From contig JANJTH010000508.1 of the NCBI GenBank assembly GCA_024711205.1, positions 1 through 40,636 on the forward strand: DNA of 40,636 nt, given 5' to 3'. Of this stretch, positions 3,816 to 40,636 are shown in pieces (position 1 is the first letter of the stretch; every line of letters begins with the position of its first letter). Made by a program: the position numbers and the translations under genes. Origin of the DNA: Planctomycetota bacterium (GTDB lineage Bacteria > Planctomycetota > J058). The notes under the pieces are model-generated. The model was not told the DNA's origin, made no database searches, and saw only the letters and a list, made by a program, of their open reading frames with translations.

Positions 3816-4029
3816 GGCCCAGGGTTGTACCCGCCCGCGGGTCGACCAGCGGGGAGGGGGCCGACGACGGGCGCCGGCAGCAACGTATCTAATGATACAT
3901 ATACATATCCGATGCGCATGAGCGGGCGAGCAATACAGATGGCGCAATCTATCAAGGCAGGTCGGTGTCGCCGGTCCGCGGGTCGGCGCGCCGAGGCCCC
4001 GCGCGCCGCCGATCAGGTAGGCTCCCCGC

Positions 4030-8846: not shown

Positions 8847-9281
8847 GCGAGGGCGCTGGTCGACCGCCCGGGGGCCAGGAGCCTCGCGCGAGGCGACCCC
8901 TTGCCGGCGTCGTTCCCATCCCCGCGAGGCGGTCGCGTGAGGACCTCGCGGGAGCCAGCGCCGTCGGTCGCTACGCGACCTGCACGCGCGCACGAGCGTC
9001 CGGCGAGCCCGGCGCGACGGCCTCACGCTCCCGCGATGGTGGGCGGGGCCTCGCCCACCGCGGCCGCCCGGCGGCCCGGCACACCGGACCGGGCAACGCA
9101 GGGCGGCGCTCGCCTCGCCAGGGCGGGAGGGGCGTCCTGGCGCGCCGCCGGTGAAGGACCGTCGGATCGCCCCCTCGCCCGCACGGACCTCGTGGCGCGC
9201 CCCCCGAGCCTTCCGCCGCCCTGGCCCCCCCGGTCGCGCCCCCGCTGCGGCCCCCCGGGACGTCCGGCCCGAAGCTGCGCA

Positions 9282-9301
9282 GTATACATGGATATGTATA
9301 C
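9282..9301. repeat. AT-rich perfect inverted repeat GTATACAT-GGAT-ATGTATAC
   Basis: 8-bp perfect arms 9282-9289 and 9294-9301, isolated in very GC-rich intergenic DNA. Confidence 0.9.
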
Positions 9302-9482
9302 AGCTTGCAGGATACCAACAACACGCCCTCATCCGGCTCGGCGGGCCGGCCTCGGGGTTCGTCTCGCGCTTCGTCTCGCGAGCCGGGCCGCTGCATGGCT
9401 TCGCCTCGGTTCGTCTCGCCGTGACGCGAACCTGACTCGCCACGGTCGTAAGCCGCGTTGGGCCGGTGAGTCGCATGCTTGG

Positions 9483-9508
9483 CCTGCCGCTCGCTAAGCG
9501 AGGCAGGA
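9483..9508 (+). promoter_or_regulatory. 5'-leader hairpin upstream of the BPI-like lipoprotein gene
   Basis: CCTGCCGCTCGCTAAGCGAGGCAGG: CTCGCT/AGCGAG with outer CCTGC/GCAGG; ATG follows at 9523. Confidence 0.5.
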
Positions 9509-9522
9509 CGGAGACGAGACCC

Positions 9523-11388
9523 ATGACCTCCCCCCTGCCCTGCCCCGCCCGCTGGACCCTGGCCCTCCTGGTGCTCGGCCTGTCCGCGACCGCCGGGGTC
9601 GGCTGCAACAGCAAGCGCGACGGCCAGGGGACGCTCCTCGCGACCGGGACGGGCGCGGCCACGGCCGGGATCACGTCGGGCGCGACGCCGGGCGCGCTCC
9701 CCCCGGGGACGCCGCCGATCGCGGGCATGCCCCAGGCGGCCGCGCTCGACGGGCCGTCGATCGAGATCACGTCGCCCGCGCCCGGCGCCGCCGTGACCGG
9801 GCCGCGCGTGACGGTCGAGGGCGTCGTCACGGACCTGGGGCTCGGGATCGCCGAGGTCCACGTGGCGGGCCGGACGGTGCCGGTCGACGCGAGCGGGGTG
9901 TTCCGGGCCGAGGTGGACGTGACGCCCGGGGTCGAGACCGTCCTCGTCGAGGCCTGGGACACGACGCAGCGCCGCCGGGCCCGCCACGTGAGCGTCGTCG
10001 CGGGCGACCTCGCGGCCGAGGCCGACCTCCTGCCCGGGGCGGCGTCGATCCGCGCCTCGGACGCCGCCCTCGACCTGATCGAGCCCCAGGTCGCCCAGGG
10101 CGTCGAGGCGCAGCGGGCGCAGATCGTCCAGCAGGTCCTCGCGACCCGCCTCGGCAACGACACGAAGATGACCGGGTTCCGGTTCGGCGCGGTCGGCGCG
10201 GACGTCGACGCGATCCAGGGCGGCGCCCGCTTCACGATCTCGATCGCGGACCTGGCCATGGACATCGAGCACAAGGCGAAGATCCTGTTCGTGTTCAACA
10301 CGACGAAGCGCGGGACGATCCGGGCCCAGCGCCTCGACATCGAGGGCACGGCGGCGATCTCGGTCCAGGCCGGCCAGCCGAGCGTCCGCATGATCCAGGT
10401 CGTCGCCCGGACCCAGGGCTTCTCGGTCCCCGACTGGGCGGACGGCGAGGAGGGGAACATCCGGCGCGGGCTCGAGCAGTCGTTCGCCCAGGCCGCGGCG
10501 CCCGCCTTCGACCAGGCCCTCCAGGCGGCCTTCCGCACGACGGCCGGGACCCAGGCCCAGACCGTCGCGGGCAAGCCGGTCCGGGTCGACTGGCGGCTCG
10601 AGCGGCTCGCCTTCGACGACGAGGGCCTGACGGCGGTCCTCGGGGCGAACGTGCAGGCCGACCGGGTCGTCAACGCGAGCGGCCCGACCGGCTCGGTCGC
10701 GCGCCGCCGGGCGCTGCCCACCCTCGCGGGCGGCGGGCAGGCGGGCTCGACGAACGCGGGGCTCGCGCTCGGCGAGGACCTCCTCGCCCGGGCGCTGCAC
10801 GCCGCCTGGCGCGCGGGCGCGATGGACCTCCGCCTCGACGCGGCGGCCGCCCAGCGGCTGGGCGTCCCGGCCCTCGACACGACCGCGCTCCTGCTCCTCG
10901 CGCCGGAGCTCTCCCAGGTGGTGGCGCCGGGCCTGCCGGTCGTCCTCGACGTGAAGGCGACCATGCCGCCCACGCTCACCGTGAACGCGTCCGGGCAGCA
11001 CCGGCTCGCGCTCGGCGGGCTCCGGGTCACGACGCTGGTCCAGGACCCGCAGCAGGGCCTCATCCCGCTCGCCGACGCAGACTGGGCGATCGAGGCCGAC
11101 GTGACCCTGGTGGCCCGGGGCGGCCAGCTCGTGCTCGAGCCGGGCGCGACCCCGCCCGTCTGCCACGTCGACACGGTCGGGGCGGCGGCGCCCGGGACCG
11201 AGACCGTCCTCGACCGCATGGCCCCGGCCCTCGGCGCCCAGCTCCTCCGCGCCGCGCTCGCCGGCCAGGGCGCCCTCACCGCCCCTGCCCTGCCCGGCTT
11301 CACCCTCGACGACCTCCGCCCGAGCGCGGTCGACGGCGCCCTCGTCGTCCTCGGCACGGCGAAGCCCGCGGCGACCCGGGCCCCCTGA
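9523..11388 (+). CDS. Lipoprotein with N-terminal Ig-like domain and BPI/LBP/CETP-like (TULIP) body
   Basis: Lipobox SATAGVGC; Ig-like PSIEITSPAPGAAVTGPRVTVEGVV; C-terminal LLARALHAAWRAGAMDLRLD...LDTTALLLLAPELSQVVAPGLPVVLDVKATMPPTLTVNASGQHRLALGGLRVTTLV follows the BPI C-terminal pattern. Confidence 0.75.
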   Translation: MTSPLPCPARWTLALLVLGLSATAGVGCNSKRDGQGTLLATGTGAATAGITSGATPGALPPGTPPIAGMPQAAALDGPSIEITSPAPGAAVTGPRVTVEGVVTDLGLGIAEVHVAGRTVPVDASGVFRAEVDVTPGVETVLVEAWDTTQRRRARHVSVVAGDLAAEADLLPGAASIRASDAALDLIEPQVAQGVEAQRAQIVQQVLATRLGNDTKMTGFRFGAVGADVDAIQGGARFTISIADLAMDIEHKAKILFVFNTTKRGTIRAQRLDIEGTAAISVQAGQPSVRMIQVVARTQGFSVPDWADGEEGNIRRGLEQSFAQAAAPAFDQALQAAFRTTAGTQAQTVAGKPVRVDWRLERLAFDDEGLTAVLGANVQADRVVNASGPTGSVARRRALPTLAGGGQAGSTNAGLALGEDLLARALHAAWRAGAMDLRLDAAAAQRLGVPALDTTALLLLAPELSQVVAPGLPVVLDVKATMPPTLTVNASGQHRLALGGLRVTTLVQDPQQGLIPLADADWAIEADVTLVARGGQLVLEPGATPPVCHVDTVGAAAPGTETVLDRMAPALGAQLLRAALAGQGALTAPALPGFTLDDLRPSAVDGALVVLGTAKPAATRAP

Positions 11389-11434: not shown

Positions 11435-11488
11435 TATAAATACATGCACGTGCGCCTGTGAACGCAGCAGTGTATGCATATATTTATA
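11435..11488. repeat. AT-rich inverted repeat between convergent genes (possible bidirectional terminator)
   Basis: TATAAATACATGCA (11435-11448) versus TGCATATATTTATA (11475-11488), 13/14 complementary; the second arm overlaps the TAA stop of the minus-strand gene. Confidence 0.7.
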
Positions 11489-12713
11489 GATCGACACGAA
11501 GCCCGGCGGTCGCCCACCACTGGTGGAGCCCGTCGCTCCGCCACACGCGGTCGACCCCGACGTCGAGCCGCCAGGGCGCGAGGTCGAGCGTGAGGCCGAG
11601 CCCGACGGCGTGGCTGCGGAACGCGCCCAGGTCGGGGTCCTGCGTCCGCCGGTACGGCAGGGCGCCCTCGCTGAACGCGAAGAACCGGTCGTAGGCGTCC
11701 GCCGCGCGCTGGACGTGATGGCGGTAGAGCACGCGCGCCCGCAGGAGGTCGCGGACGAGCCACTGATGCAGCGCGGGCTCGAGGGTCACGGCCGTGAGCC
11801 CCCAGGAGTCCGCGTAGTAGCGCCCGCCGAGCTCGAGCGCCGTCCCCGTGGGGAGGAGCGCGCGGGCGCGCGCGAACCAGGCCCCGCGCAGGCGGCGCTC
11901 GGGCAGGGCCTCGGGGTGCTCGAACCCGGCGAACCCGCCGACGAGGTACGGGTTGGCCCCGGCGAACGCGGCGGCGACGACGAACGAGTTGAGCGGCGTC
12001 TCGAGCGCGCCCTCCTGCCAGGTGAGCGACGTCCCGGCCTCGCCGTGGAGCCAGGGGGTGAGCGCGCGGTAGTAGGTGAGCTCGAGCGTGCCCGTGCGCC
12101 GCGCGGCGGGGCCCCGGTTGATCCCGTCGTAGCCGATCCGCACGACCGTGTCGAAGAAGCCGCGCCCGGCGATCGTGAGCGCGTCGTTGCCGTCGGCGGA
12201 GGTCAGGGTGACCCGCGCGGAGCCCCCGAACGAGCGGTAGTCGCGCTCGAAGCTCCCGTGCGCGCCGACCCCGAGCTCGACCCCGGGCGCGACCCGCTGG
12301 CGGAGGCCCAGGTCGAGCCCGAAGTAGTAGTCGCCGGAGGCCCCCGACTGGAGCGGGAAGTTGTCGAGCTTCGCGATCGAGGCCGACGTGACGAGGTCGT
12401 GGCTGAGCTGGACGGACCAGCCGGTGTCGGCGTCCGCCTGGTGGTCGAGGAGCAGCACGGGCTCGATCACCGTGAGCGTCTCGTCGGCGAACGGGTTGCC
12501 CCGCGTCCCCCGCCGGTCCTCCTGCGCGTAGTAGCTCGTGCGCGCCGTGACGGTCGTCCGGCCCGGCGCCTCCTCGGCCTCGGGCGCGCGCTCCCCCGCG
12601 TCGGGGCCCGGCGCCTCCTGGGCGCGGGCGGTGCCCGCGAGCGCGAGCGCGAGCGCGAGCGAGAGCGCGGCCAGGGCGGACGTCCTCGCCCCGCGCGGGC
12701 CGGGCGCGGCCAT
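11484..12713 (-). CDS. DUF3570-type outer-membrane beta-barrel protein
   Basis: Signal peptide ending ARAQ; RTTVTARTSYYAQEDRRGTRGNPFADETLTVIEPVLLLDHQ..., alternating strands, terminal GLRVDL. Confidence 0.82.
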   Translation of the reverse strand: MAAPGPRGARTSALAALSLALALALAGTARAQEAPGPDAGERAPEAEEAPGRTTVTARTSYYAQEDRRGTRGNPFADETLTVIEPVLLLDHQADADTGWSVQLSHDLVTSASIAKLDNFPLQSGASGDYYFGLDLGLRQRVAPGVELGVGAHGSFERDYRSFGGSARVTLTSADGNDALTIAGRGFFDTVVRIGYDGINRGPAARRTGTLELTYYRALTPWLHGEAGTSLTWQEGALETPLNSFVVAAAFAGANPYLVGGFAGFEHPEALPERRLRGAWFARARALLPTGTALELGGRYYADSWGLTAVTLEPALHQWLVRDLLRARVLYRHHVQRAADAYDRFFAFSEGALPYRRTQDPDLGAFRSHAVGLGLTLDLAPWRLDVGVDRVWRSDGLHQWWATAGLRVDL

Positions 12714-12997
12714 CAGTAGCACCCGCAGCCGCCGCCGCCGCCGCCCGCGAACCCGCCGGCCGCGCCCTCGCGCGACGTCGTCGCCTTGCGCCGGAAGTGC
12801 CCCTCGGTCGGGCAGCCGCCGAGGTCCATGATCGGGTCGCCGAGCCCGCGTCGCTCGGTGAAGTGGACCGGCGCGCAGCCCGCTCCGGCCGCGCTCGCGA
12901 GCGCGAGCGCGAGGACGGGCCACGAGGGCCGTCGCGGGCCGGCCCCGCGGGCCTCCGCGCGGCCCCGCGACCTCGATGCGATACCCCGAGCGTCCAC
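12713..12997 (-). CDS. DUF4266-type small lipoprotein
   Basis: AGAGCAPVHFTERRGLGDPIMDL...HFRRKATTSREGAAGGFAGGGGGGCGCY; ATGA overlap with the DUF3570 start. Confidence 0.82.
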   Translation of the reverse strand: MDARGIASRSRGRAEARGAGPRRPSWPVLALALASAAGAGCAPVHFTERRGLGDPIMDLGGCPTEGHFRRKATTSREGAAGGFAGGGGGGCGCY

Positions 12998-13006
12998 CTG
13001 GGGCGG

Positions 13007-13015
13007 TGTTATACT
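13007..13015 (+). promoter_or_regulatory. Candidate extended -10 promoter element (TGTTATACT) for the pnt operon
   Basis: TGn-TATACT, 87 nt upstream of the pntAA ATG. Confidence 0.45.
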
Positions 13016-13101
13016 CCGCGCCCTTCGCGGCCGCGACGCGTCGCGCGCCGCCCGCCGCCGGGCCCGCAGGCCCCCCCAACCCGCAGCGAGGTTGCCGCGC
13101 C

Positions 13102-14265
13102 ATGAGCACGATCTTCGTCCCCCGCGAGGTGGCGCCGGACGAGACCCGCGTCGCCGCGACGCCCGAGACGGTCAAGCGCCTGGTCAAGCTCGGCTACGCC
13201 GTGACCGTCGAGGCCGGGGCCGGCGCGCGCAGCGCGATCCCCGACGCCGAGTTCGCGCAGGCGGGCGCCACGCTCGCCGCCGACGGCGCCGAGGCCTGGG
13301 CCAAGGCCGACGTGGTGCTGAAGGTCCAGCCGCCCACGGACGACGAGGTCGACCGCCTCCGCGAGGGGGCCATGCTCATGAGCTTCGTTTGGTCGGTCCA
13401 GACCCCGGCGCTCGCGCGCCGGCTGGCCGCGCGCAAGGCCTCCGTCGTCGCGATGGAGGCGATCCCGCGCATCTCGCGCGCGCAGAAGCTCGACGCGCTC
13501 AGCTCCCAGGCCAACCTGGCCGGCTACAAGGCCGTGCTCCTGGGCGCCAACGCGCTCAAGCGGATCATGCCCATGCTCGTGACGGCCGCCGGCACGATCA
13601 AGCCGGCCCGCGTCGTGATCATGGGCGCCGGCGTCGCGGGGCTCCAGGCGATCGCGACGGCCAAGCGCCTGGGCGCGATCGTCGAGGCGACCGACGTGCG
13701 CCCCGCCGTGAAGGAGCAGGTCGAGAGCCTCGGGGCGAAGTTCATCGAGCCGCCGCAGGACGCCAAGAGCGAGGGCTCGGGCGGCTACGCCAAGGAGCTG
13801 ACGCCCGAGCAGCTCGCGCGCCAGCAGCAGGTCGTGCGCGAGCACCTCGTCGCGGCCGACCTCGTCGTCACGACGGCGCTCGTCCCGGGGCGCAAGGCGC
13901 CCCTCCTCGTGCCCGCGGACGTCGTCGAGGCGATGAAGCCCGGCAGCGTGATCGTCGACCTGGCCGCCTCGCAGGGCGGGAACTGCGCGCTCACGGAGCC
14001 GGGCAAGACGGTCGAGAAGCACGGGGTGACGATCCTGGGCGAGCTCAACGCGCCCGCGCTCGTGCCGACCGACGCCAGCGCCGTCTACGCGCGCAACCTG
14101 CTCGCGCTGCTCCAGGACATGACGAAGAAGGATGCGCCCGGCCAGGTCACGGTCGACCTCAAGGACGAGGTCGTCGACGGGGCGCTGATCATCCACCAGG
14201 GCGAGGTCCGCCACGCGCCGACGCGCGAGGCGATCGAGAAGCTCGCCGCCCCGGTCGCCGGCTGA
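13102..14265 (+). CDS. pntAA: NAD(P) transhydrogenase subunit alpha part 1
   Basis: MSTIFVPREVAPDETRVAATPETVKRLVKLGY...VVIMGAGVAGLQAIATAKRLGAIVEATDVRPAVKEQVESLGAKF. Confidence 0.96.
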   Translation: MSTIFVPREVAPDETRVAATPETVKRLVKLGYAVTVEAGAGARSAIPDAEFAQAGATLAADGAEAWAKADVVLKVQPPTDDEVDRLREGAMLMSFVWSVQTPALARRLAARKASVVAMEAIPRISRAQKLDALSSQANLAGYKAVLLGANALKRIMPMLVTAAGTIKPARVVIMGAGVAGLQAIATAKRLGAIVEATDVRPAVKEQVESLGAKFIEPPQDAKSEGSGGYAKELTPEQLARQQQVVREHLVAADLVVTTALVPGRKAPLLVPADVVEAMKPGSVIVDLAASQGGNCALTEPGKTVEKHGVTILGELNAPALVPTDASAVYARNLLALLQDMTKKDAPGQVTVDLKDEVVDGALIIHQGEVRHAPTREAIEKLAAPVAG

Positions 14266-37843: not shown

Positions 37844-38860
37844 TCAGTCCGGCCCCGGCGTCGCGGCCTGCTCGACCGCGGCGACGACGGCCCGCGCGAG
37901 GTCCTCCTGCGCCGTCGGGAGGAGTTGCGCCGCGAGCTCGGCCCAGTCCTCCTCGTCGAGGCAGTGAGGGACGCGCAGGAAGCCGACGACGAACCACGAG
38001 CGCGTGACGCCGGGGCCGAACGCGGCGACATCGGCGCGGGTGCGGACGACGACGCGGCCCTCGCGCTCGGCGCCCGCCCCGCCGTCGACGAGGCGCCAGC
38101 GCGCGCGCTGCTCGAGCGCGTAGACCTCGCTCGCGATGCACCAGTTGGGCGGGTCGACCGCCGGGAAGATCGCGAGCGCGCACACGACGAGCGTCGCGAT
38201 CTTGACCGGGAGCCACCCGTTGTGGCGCTCGAGCACGAGGTCGGCCCCGTCCAGCGTGACCTCGAGCCGCCAGCGCGGGGGCGGCGAGGAGGTCGGCCCC
38301 GCCGGCCCGTCGGGAGGCGCCTCCGCGCTGGCCGGGCCGAGGCCGCCGCGCTCGGCGAGGAGCCCGACCGTCCGCGCGCGGAGCGCCGCGAGGTCGGCAT
38401 GGGGCCGGTAGGGCGGGCTGAACGGGGCCCGGAGGCGCGTCCCGCCGCAGCCTCGGCAAGGACCACGCGGCCAGCCGGCGCGGCCCAGGCCCGAGGCGCC
38501 CGTCCCGAGCACGACGGGCGCCTCCACGCTCGCGCCGCAGGCGGCGCACTCGAGGGCCCTGTGGGGCGAGACGTCGTCGGTCGCGAGCACGACCTCGCGC
38601 GCGGCGCTCGCCGTGTAGTCGGTGACCCACGGCCCGACGAGCACGCCGCCCTCGCCCGGGGCGGGCGGCGGCGGGAGCGGCGCGGGCTCGGGCGTGGAAG
38701 CGCAGCCGGCGAGCCCGAGCGCGAGCGCGAGCGCGAGGGCGCGAGGCGCACGACCGGGGCCGCGGCGCGCACGTGCGGACGGCGCGGACGGATGCGCGCT
38801 GGCCTCGGCCGTGCGTCGGAGGGGCCCCTGCGCCGCCGCTCGCGGGCTCGTCGGTCGCAC
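37844..38860 (-). CDS. Putative lipoprotein of unknown function with CxxC pairs
   Basis: [15 protein letters not shown] lipobox; ECAACG...CRGCGG; no recognised family. Start codon uncertain. Confidence 0.75.
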
Positions 38861-38948
38861 GGGCTATGCTCCTCGGGGCACGGTCTGGCGCGCGCGCGGT
38901 AGCCTACCGCACGCGTCCGCGGGGGCCGGCGGGGGGGAGGACGAGGGC

Positions 38949-40636
38949 TTGGAGCTGTCCGACCTGACCCCGGCGCAGCGCGAGGCGGTGACGACCACCG
39001 AGGGGCCGCTCCTCGTGCTCGCGGGCGCCGGCTCGGGCAAGACGCGCGTGATCACGCGCCGCGTGGCGCACCTGATCGAGCGCGGGACGCCGCCGCAGGC
39101 CGTGCTCGCGATCACGTTCACGAACAAGGCCGCGGGCGAGATGCGCCGGCGGATCGAGCGGCTCTCGGGGGGCGCCCGCGTCGAGGCCTCGACGTTCCAC
39201 GCGTTCTGCGCGCGGCTCCTGCGCCGCTTCGCGCCCGCGATCGACCGCCGGCGCGACTTCACGATCCTCGACGACTCCGACCAGCTCGCGGCGGCGCGCG
39301 AGGCGCTCGTCGAGACCGGGACCGACCCGAAGCTCTACGGCGCGAACAAGGTCCTCCACGCGATCGAGCGCGCGAAGGACCGCCTCGAGTCGCCGGCCGA
39401 CCTCGAGGCCGCGGCCGAGACGACCTTCGAGAAGGTCGTCGCGCGCGCCTACGCGCACTACGAGGACCTGCTCCGCCAGAGCAACGCGATGGACTTCGGC
39501 GACCTGCTCGCGCGCGCGGTCGAGGTCCTGCGCGTCGACGCGATCCGCGAGGACCTGGCGCGCCGCTACCGCTACCTGCTCATCGACGAGTACCAGGACA
39601 CGAACCACGCCCAGTACCTCGTCGCGAAGCTGCTCGCGCAGGAGCACCGGAACATCTGCGCGACCGGCGACCCGAACCAGTCGATCTACGGCTGGCGCGG
39701 CGCCGACATAGGCAACATCCTCAGCTTCGAGCGCGACTGGCCCGAGGCGCGGATCGTGAAGCTCGAGCGCAACTTCCGCTCGACGCGCACGATCCTGCGC
39801 GCCGCGAACGGCGTCATCGCGCGCAACACGGAGCGGCGCGACGTCGAGCTCACGACCGAGGACGGCGAGGGGCCGCCGCTCGAGCTGCGCGTGCTGCCCA
39901 ACGAGCACGAGGAGGGGCGCTGGGTCGCGCGCCAGGTCGAGGAGGCGCTCCACGCGGGGGTCCCGCGCGACGAGGTCGCGGTCTTCTACCGGACAAACGC
40001 CCTCTCGCGCTCGATCGAGGTCGCGCTGCTCGAGCGGGGCGTGCCCTACGAGGTCGTGGGCGCGACGGCCTTCTACCAGCGCAAGGAGGTCAAGGACGTC
40101 CTCGCCTACCTGCGGCTCGCGACGAACCCGCACGACGACCTCGCGGTCGCCCGGGTCGCGAACGTGCCGCCGCGCGGGGTCGGCAAGACGACGCTCGCGA
40201 AGGTCAAGGAGGCGGCGACGCGCGCGCGCACGACGCTCCTCGAGGCGGCGCGCGCGCTCGCGCAGGGCGGCGAGGTGCGGGGGCGCGGGCGCGAGGGCCT
40301 GGCCGAGCTCGTCCGCACGCTCGACGGGATCGCGGCGGCGACGGCGGACGAGCGGCGCGTCGAGGAGGTCCTGCGCACGATCCTCGCCGCGACGGGCTAC
40401 CGCGAGTACCTCGTGCGCGAGTTCCCCGACGACCAGGAGGACCGCCTCCTCAACCTCGAGGCGCTCCTCGCGGGCGCCCACGACTTCGACGCGCACCAGG
40501 CCGAACGAGAGGCCTCGGGCGGCGAGGCCGCGCGACCGGGGCGCGCGGGCGCGCTCGCCCTGCTCGCGACCGCGCGCGGCGCGGCCCACCGCGGACGCGA
40601 GCAGGCCCCGCCTGGCGGGAGCGCGCCGCCCGCCCC
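38949..40636 (+). CDS. UvrD/PcrA-family ATP-dependent DNA helicase (3' truncated by window)
   Basis: TTG start after [104 protein letters not shown]. Absent from the supplied ORF track. Confidence 0.93.

Follow-up and report, generated by a model that had tools for sequence, protein, structure and literature searches.

Background

TULIP proteins transport lipids between membranes. For BPI, LBP and CETP, lipid binding is established and is shared with other TULIPs (PMC5507252). A forward-strand gene in a 40,636-nucleotide stretch of planctomycetal DNA (hereafter the window) raises the question whether a bacterial lipoprotein can be a relative of such proteins over its two barrels and, if so, what it might do in the bacterial envelope. 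The window is contig C689 of a Planctomycetota MAG, a 6.8 Mb draft that is 86% complete with 3.6% contamination.

That bacteria have BPI-like proteins is already known from two papers. Levine 2019 (PMC6791001) proposed DUF4403 (PF14356) as a bacterial full-length BPI-like pseudodimer, on a match to BPI of 63% HHsearch probability over the N-terminal half, weaker than that of the family studied here; together with earlier work, the same paper counts YceB and others among the bacterial TULIPs. In a clustering of predicted structures by Barrio-Hernandez et al. 2023 (PMC10584675), human BPI falls together with bacterial proteins (A0A2D5ZNG0, TM-score 0.81), and a figure legend lists a Planctomycetes bacterium. 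Like the window family, these proteins are bacterial and resemble human BPI in predicted structure; theirs is a passing mention, however, and the passages in question give no account of a family or its anchor, of domain layout or paralogs, or of homology at the level of sequence. An original prediction, made from the DNA letters, had assigned the protein to the BPI/LBP type, which stands, and had described such proteins as mostly known from eukaryotes; the bacterial ones of PMC6791001 and PMC10584675 qualify this. In the literature searched we found no description of the lipoprotein family, its sequence-level link to BPI and LBP, its paralogs or its fusion to an EEP domain; the family appears to be undescribed, as do its lipid anchor and the fusions that join it to a possible lipid-cutting enzyme.

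Structure of the gene and its product

The forward-strand reading frame is open from 9436 to 11388 and, from the ATG at 9523 to the stop at 11388, encodes 621 residues. Its GC contents at the three codon positions (0.77, 0.55 and 0.99) are as in a real gene, in a window of 76.5% GC, and the frame 9523-11388 is a real and intact gene. The product comprises, in this order, a signal peptide, a lipobox cysteine, a linker, one Ig-like domain and about 450 residues of two TULIP barrels:

9523..9603 (+): signal peptide, residues 1-27, ending in the lipobox SATAGVG (from sequence; lipoprotein signal in nearly all core-family members)
9604..9606 (+): predicted lipid-modified cysteine C28 (from sequence; column invariant in alignment A1)
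9607..9753 (+): disordered linker, residues 29-77 (AF2 pLDDT <50 over residues 1-74)
9754..10008 (+): Ig-like domain Glucodextran_B, residues 78-162 (Pfam 3e-9, above gathering cut-off; pLDDT >88)
10030..10557 (+): N-terminal TULIP barrel, residues ~170-345, with long closing helix 304-338 (AF2; Foldseek to BPI; BPI/LBP profile alignment)
10558..10749 (+): central strands connecting both barrels, residues 346-409 (AF2 strands 351-365 and 368-379)
10750..11277 (+): C-terminal TULIP barrel, residues ~410-585, with the family motif (D/E/Q)DxxNRxxHAAWRxG (AF2; near-invariant positions)
11278..11376 (+): C-terminal return strands into the central sheet, residues 586-618 (AF2; aligned with the BPI C terminus)

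The lipobox (SATAGVGC, with C28) and the Ig-like domain had both been read from the sequence beforehand and both are present, the latter as a Glucodextran_B match over residues 78-159 that overlaps with Big_7. The residue after C28 is Asn, as against the Asp that serves as inner-membrane retention signal in E. coli. In the C-terminal barrel, near-invariant positions are D419, 422, A427, W429 and G432, of which 422 is Asn in relatives and Ala in the window protein.

In the AlphaFold2 model (mean pLDDT 81.2, pTM 0.77; input alignment of 18 family members), two alpha/beta TULIP repeats, closed by the long helices 304-338 and 559-582, come after the Ig domain, and both barrels lie in one chain with a central sheet between them. 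The model's top Foldseek matches in the PDB are BPI (1bp1, 2.6e-23; 1ewf, 1.9e-22), LBP (3.3e-19) and CETP (9.7e-19), aligned over 484 columns for 1bp1 and nearly 500 for all of them, which bears out, by the kind of structural comparison suggested in the original prediction, the two-barrel resemblance proposed there. The superposition with a TM-score of 0.64 by target length has a high rmsd (6.9 A), which probably reflects a differing angle between the barrels. A separate model of a distant family branch likewise has BPI as its top match (4.9e-22), with takeout and JHBP among the weaker ones. Among the viral structures searched, matches were limited to the Ig domain or to unrelated beta proteins.

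Relationship to BPI and LBP

Taken singly, the window protein reveals little of this relationship. Its ~450 residues after the Ig domain are recognised by no Pfam model, single-sequence searches (Pfam, PDB, BLASTP) returned no BPI match, neither PF01273 nor PF02886 matched at E up to 10, and pairwise comparison with BPI by BLASTP gave no more than a non-significant match in an unrelated stretch (E = 0.07). Even a profile of its own clade alone has no similarity to BPI by sequence. The resemblance becomes significant only through the family profile and the fold, and the link therefore depends on the wider family.

Within that family, PF02886 is matched by 10 of the 18 aligned members (best 7.5e-10), and a paralog from the same genome, on contig C467, matches it at 0.0035. 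A profile of the 18 full-length members finds BPI at 1.7e-10 and LBP at 3.6e-9, and one of 29 TULIP regions finds LBP at 2.5e-21 and BPI at 1.3e-18, colinearly, over both barrels of BPI and most of both in LBP; as a yardstick, a single-sequence phmmer search with BPI reaches CETP at 5.8e-21. The Pfam comparison that the original prediction had put forward holds in this form for the family and fails for the window protein alone. Of the two outcomes that were to refute that prediction, a structure lacking two TULIP barrels and a lack of profile matches to BPI or TULIP families, neither occurred. With the window's own clade omitted, the profile still matches BPI (5.9e-17) and LBP (8.6e-20) and picks up the window protein (1.4e-47, residues 168-598), and shuffled and reversed control targets score no higher than 6.5 bits. 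The link that leads from the window protein through its family to BPI and LBP is therefore sound. For the profile of 29 TULIP regions, hhalign gave 97.5%.

The alignment of family members with BPI and LBP has 15% identity over 408 positions. In it, LLARALHAAWRAGAMDLRLD pairs with a BPI segment of 21 residues, the series LDTT, PELSQVV and PPTLTVNASG with LTTK, PEVAKKF and a segment of 10 residues, and PALPGFTLDDLRPSAVDGALVVLGTAK with a BPI segment of 27 residues. The C-terminal BPI motifs named in the original prediction are found in register. On these sequence comparisons, the window protein's family is homologous to BPI and LBP.

Like human BPI and LBP (PF01273 + PF02886; 1bp1, 1ewf, 4m4d), the window protein has two TULIP barrels per chain with the same topology in the same order, a colinear profile match and a similar GxPLP motif at the C terminus. 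Unlike them, it is a bacterial lipoprotein with an Ig domain and a linker, and its family has no conserved disulfide, an N-terminal barrel that is not cationic and ~15% identity. CETP (2obd) shares the two-barrel fold but is not matched in sequence by the family profile (E = 19). DUF4403 is also a bacterial pseudodimeric full-length TULIP proposed to resemble BPI. We rejected membership in it, as the window protein has no PF14356 match at E up to 10 and its genome has none in a search without a responding positive control; among 18 family members, a single one shows any match to this model (0.027). YceB/DUF1439 (3l6i) and P47/OrfX2/OrfX3 have the bacterial TULIP fold with weaker Foldseek matches and no sequence match from the family; YceB, unlike the window protein, is a single barrel, and P47/OrfX lie in neurotoxin gene clusters. 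These earlier bacterial candidates (YceB, DUF4403, P47) are tied to BPI by weak profile scores or by fold only. For the present family, ordinary profile statistics establish the tie to BPI and LBP across almost the whole length, so that the origin of the eukaryotic BPI/LBP/CETP branch can be tested with alignments and trees.

Occurrence and diversity of the family

Matches to the window protein were found in 13 of 39 related genomes, and all six sampled members of the same taxonomic family carry full-length homologs of the same layout. With a profile of the TULIP pair, members were detected in 36 of the 392 genomes sampled across the phylum (25 of 267 genera, 17 family-level groups), several of which are fragmented MAGs; one assembly with a member consists of just two contigs. 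The window's genome itself holds four. Core members are lipoproteins with one Ig domain, nearly all with a lipobox; members of other branches are ~800 residues long, most of them lack a recognisable lipobox, and their N-terminal part is unannotated. The closest named relatives are from Planctomycetota MAGs. Beyond the phylum, sampling consists of one motif scan ([FLA][LAI]NR[IA]x[HY]AAW); of the seven loci that it confirmed, six are titled Planctomycetota and one is unclassified. A scan of genome contigs with the single protein confirmed no locus, and no relative was found in the plasmids and phages searched.

One group of paralogs carries an Exo_endo_phos domain (PF03372, above the Pfam cut-off) N-terminal to the Glucodextran_B domain and the BPI-like pair, an EEP-Ig-TULIP fusion kept in three genomes of the family:

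G000:C64 (L107:2563-5757): EEP-Ig-TULIP fusion paralog (Pfam)
G002:C242 (L105:4368-9803): EEP-Ig-TULIP fusion paralog (Pfam)
G005:C79 (L106:3415-6888): EEP-Ig-TULIP fusion paralog (Pfam)

These paralogs conserve WNLGKGEH, LLCLAEV, GDTN and DHGALAVKV, motifs which we take to be typical of the Exo_endo_phos fold. The Exo_endo_phos family includes sphingomyelinases and phosphoinositide phosphatases, and also nucleases. From their sequence, the motifs look catalytic; the fused domain is possibly a lipid phosphodiesterase, and its fusion to the TULIP module suggests lipid processing.

Evolutionary origin

Could the resemblance to BPI be convergent, the barrels being structural and devoid of a lipid groove? 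The 15% identity and the missing sequence match of the window's clade would fit such a reading, but convergence would not be expected to yield profile E-values of 1e-18 to 1e-21 across both barrels while shuffled controls stay clean, and we regard it as very improbable. Just as improbable is a recent transfer of a BPI/LBP gene from a eukaryote to Planctomycetota, an idea that owes its appeal to the fact that BPI-type pseudodimers are best known in eukaryotes. In a tree to which BPI, LBP and CETP were added, bacterial and eukaryotic sequences lie on opposite sides of a 100/100 branch, although the eukaryotic sample of three sequences cannot settle direction; the bacterial members stand apart as a deep group of their own. 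The spread among them is about as deep as the BPI-CETP split, which, together with the 100/100 split, argues against recent transfer from animals. The members are moreover diverse, span 17 family-level groups of the phylum and have bacterial lipoboxes, Glucodextran_B domains and ordinary bacterial neighbours. Recent transfer is accordingly rejected on the tree with its three eukaryotic sequences.

A more tentative proposal, which we hold possible rather than likely, is that the planctomycetal family is a prokaryotic source of the eukaryotic BPI/LBP/CETP two-barrel proteins, or arose together with them. If so, the fusion of TULIP barrels would be older than eukaryotes, and the LPS binders of innate immunity would be a repurposed bacterial envelope lipid carrier.

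Putative role in the cell envelope

The genomes concerned carry markers of a diderm envelope: among the window's genome and 11 relatives, LpxC occurs in 11 of 12, and MlaD (MCE) and Omp85 in all 12. LptD was detected by Pfam in one of the 12, and the LPS export route looks divergent or missing.

Judging from domain content and homology, the window protein is quite probably a lipid-anchored envelope protein whose BPI/LBP-type TULIP pair acts as a tethered lipid carrier or presenter, as the anchor, linker and Ig domain suggest. The protein would be exported, its signal peptide is predicted to be cut before C28, and the acyl chains would tether it, probably to the outer membrane, with linker and Ig domain keeping the barrels off the membrane. 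The hydrophobic grooves of the barrels may then take up the acyl chains of an envelope lipid or some other hydrophobic molecule, and ferry it over the aqueous gap or hand it over to a partner. Different lipids are probably served by the paralogs of the same genome, one of which carries an EEP-fold phosphodiesterase domain, a fusion that would fit presentation of a lipid substrate to the enzyme.

Two other functions deserve consideration. The protein could bind LPS and kill as BPI does, inserting into the LPS of rival Gram-negative cells or of its own outer membrane; BPI and LBP are its closest structures, and lipid A may be made, given LpxC in its genome and relatives. BPI's affinity for LPS, however, depends on a strongly basic N-terminal barrel, with a net charge of +14 (residues 4-230) against -1 in the window protein, and the whole family is neutral to acidic. 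BPI also has a conserved N-barrel disulfide, Cys135-Cys175; the family has no conserved cysteine. For these reasons BPI-style killing is unlikely and the suggestion of LPS binding made originally loses its footing; the protein is, besides, tethered rather than secreted free, and no immunity or effector context lies nearby, so that we give this function little credence. Scavenging of exogenous lipids or hydrophobic nutrients by a surface lipoprotein is less remote, if still on the unlikely side: an Ig domain on a long linker would suit surface display, and TULIPs such as takeout and JHBP bind and carry small hydrophobic molecules, but no uptake transporter is consistently adjacent to the gene. 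The tethered carrier or presenter is the reading that we prefer, although the lack of a conserved operon, the single LptD match in 12 genomes and the failure of the window's clade alone to match BPI by sequence count against it. Lipid traffic in the unusual envelope of Planctomycetota is little known, and the several paralogs of a genome, among them one joined to a possible lipid phosphodiesterase, offer testable genes.

Genomic surroundings

The gene is solitary: its neighbours are a zinc-ribbon gene and, in convergent orientation, a DUF3570 gene (11484-13187, minus strand, 1.1e-13) that probably encodes an outer-membrane beta-barrel, and no conserved operon that would name a pathway surrounds it. 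The rest of the contig carries ordinary bacterial genes (e.g. transhydrogenase subunits, BatA/DUF58 proteins, a UvrD helicase). Genes upstream are common to the window and one relative (G002), which speaks for vertical inheritance and not for function. The window has just three AT-rich islands (3876-3925, 9280-9325 and 11457-11508), two of which flank the BPI-like gene, and the upstream one contains an inverted repeat, a possible promoter or operator:

9282..9301 (+): perfect inverted repeat GTATACAT-GGAT-ATGTATAC, in the AT-rich island upstream of the gene (none expected by chance)

Elsewhere, RND/MMPL genes with sterol-sensing-type domains (L071:2073-4499 and L076:12176-15064) adjoin BPI-like genes in two genomes, at the loci G003:C85 and G007:C13. 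As a link to lipid export these neighbours were rejected: two were seen in 14 flanks against ~0.5 expected (a rough estimate), and with RND genes as frequent as they are in these genomes (up to 45 domain matches per genome), the adjacency is close to what chance would give. In G005, a gene for a SIR2-domain protein (L067:7484-9229, minus strand) directly adjoins the BPI-like ortholog, and a relative occupies the same place in G002. Finally, the UvrD helicase gene (38619-40636; compare L074) is interrupted by the contig end, and in G005 the ortholog of this helicase gene is found close to the other BPI-like paralog, which suggests that contigs C689 and C827 may adjoin and that the two paralogs may be linked.
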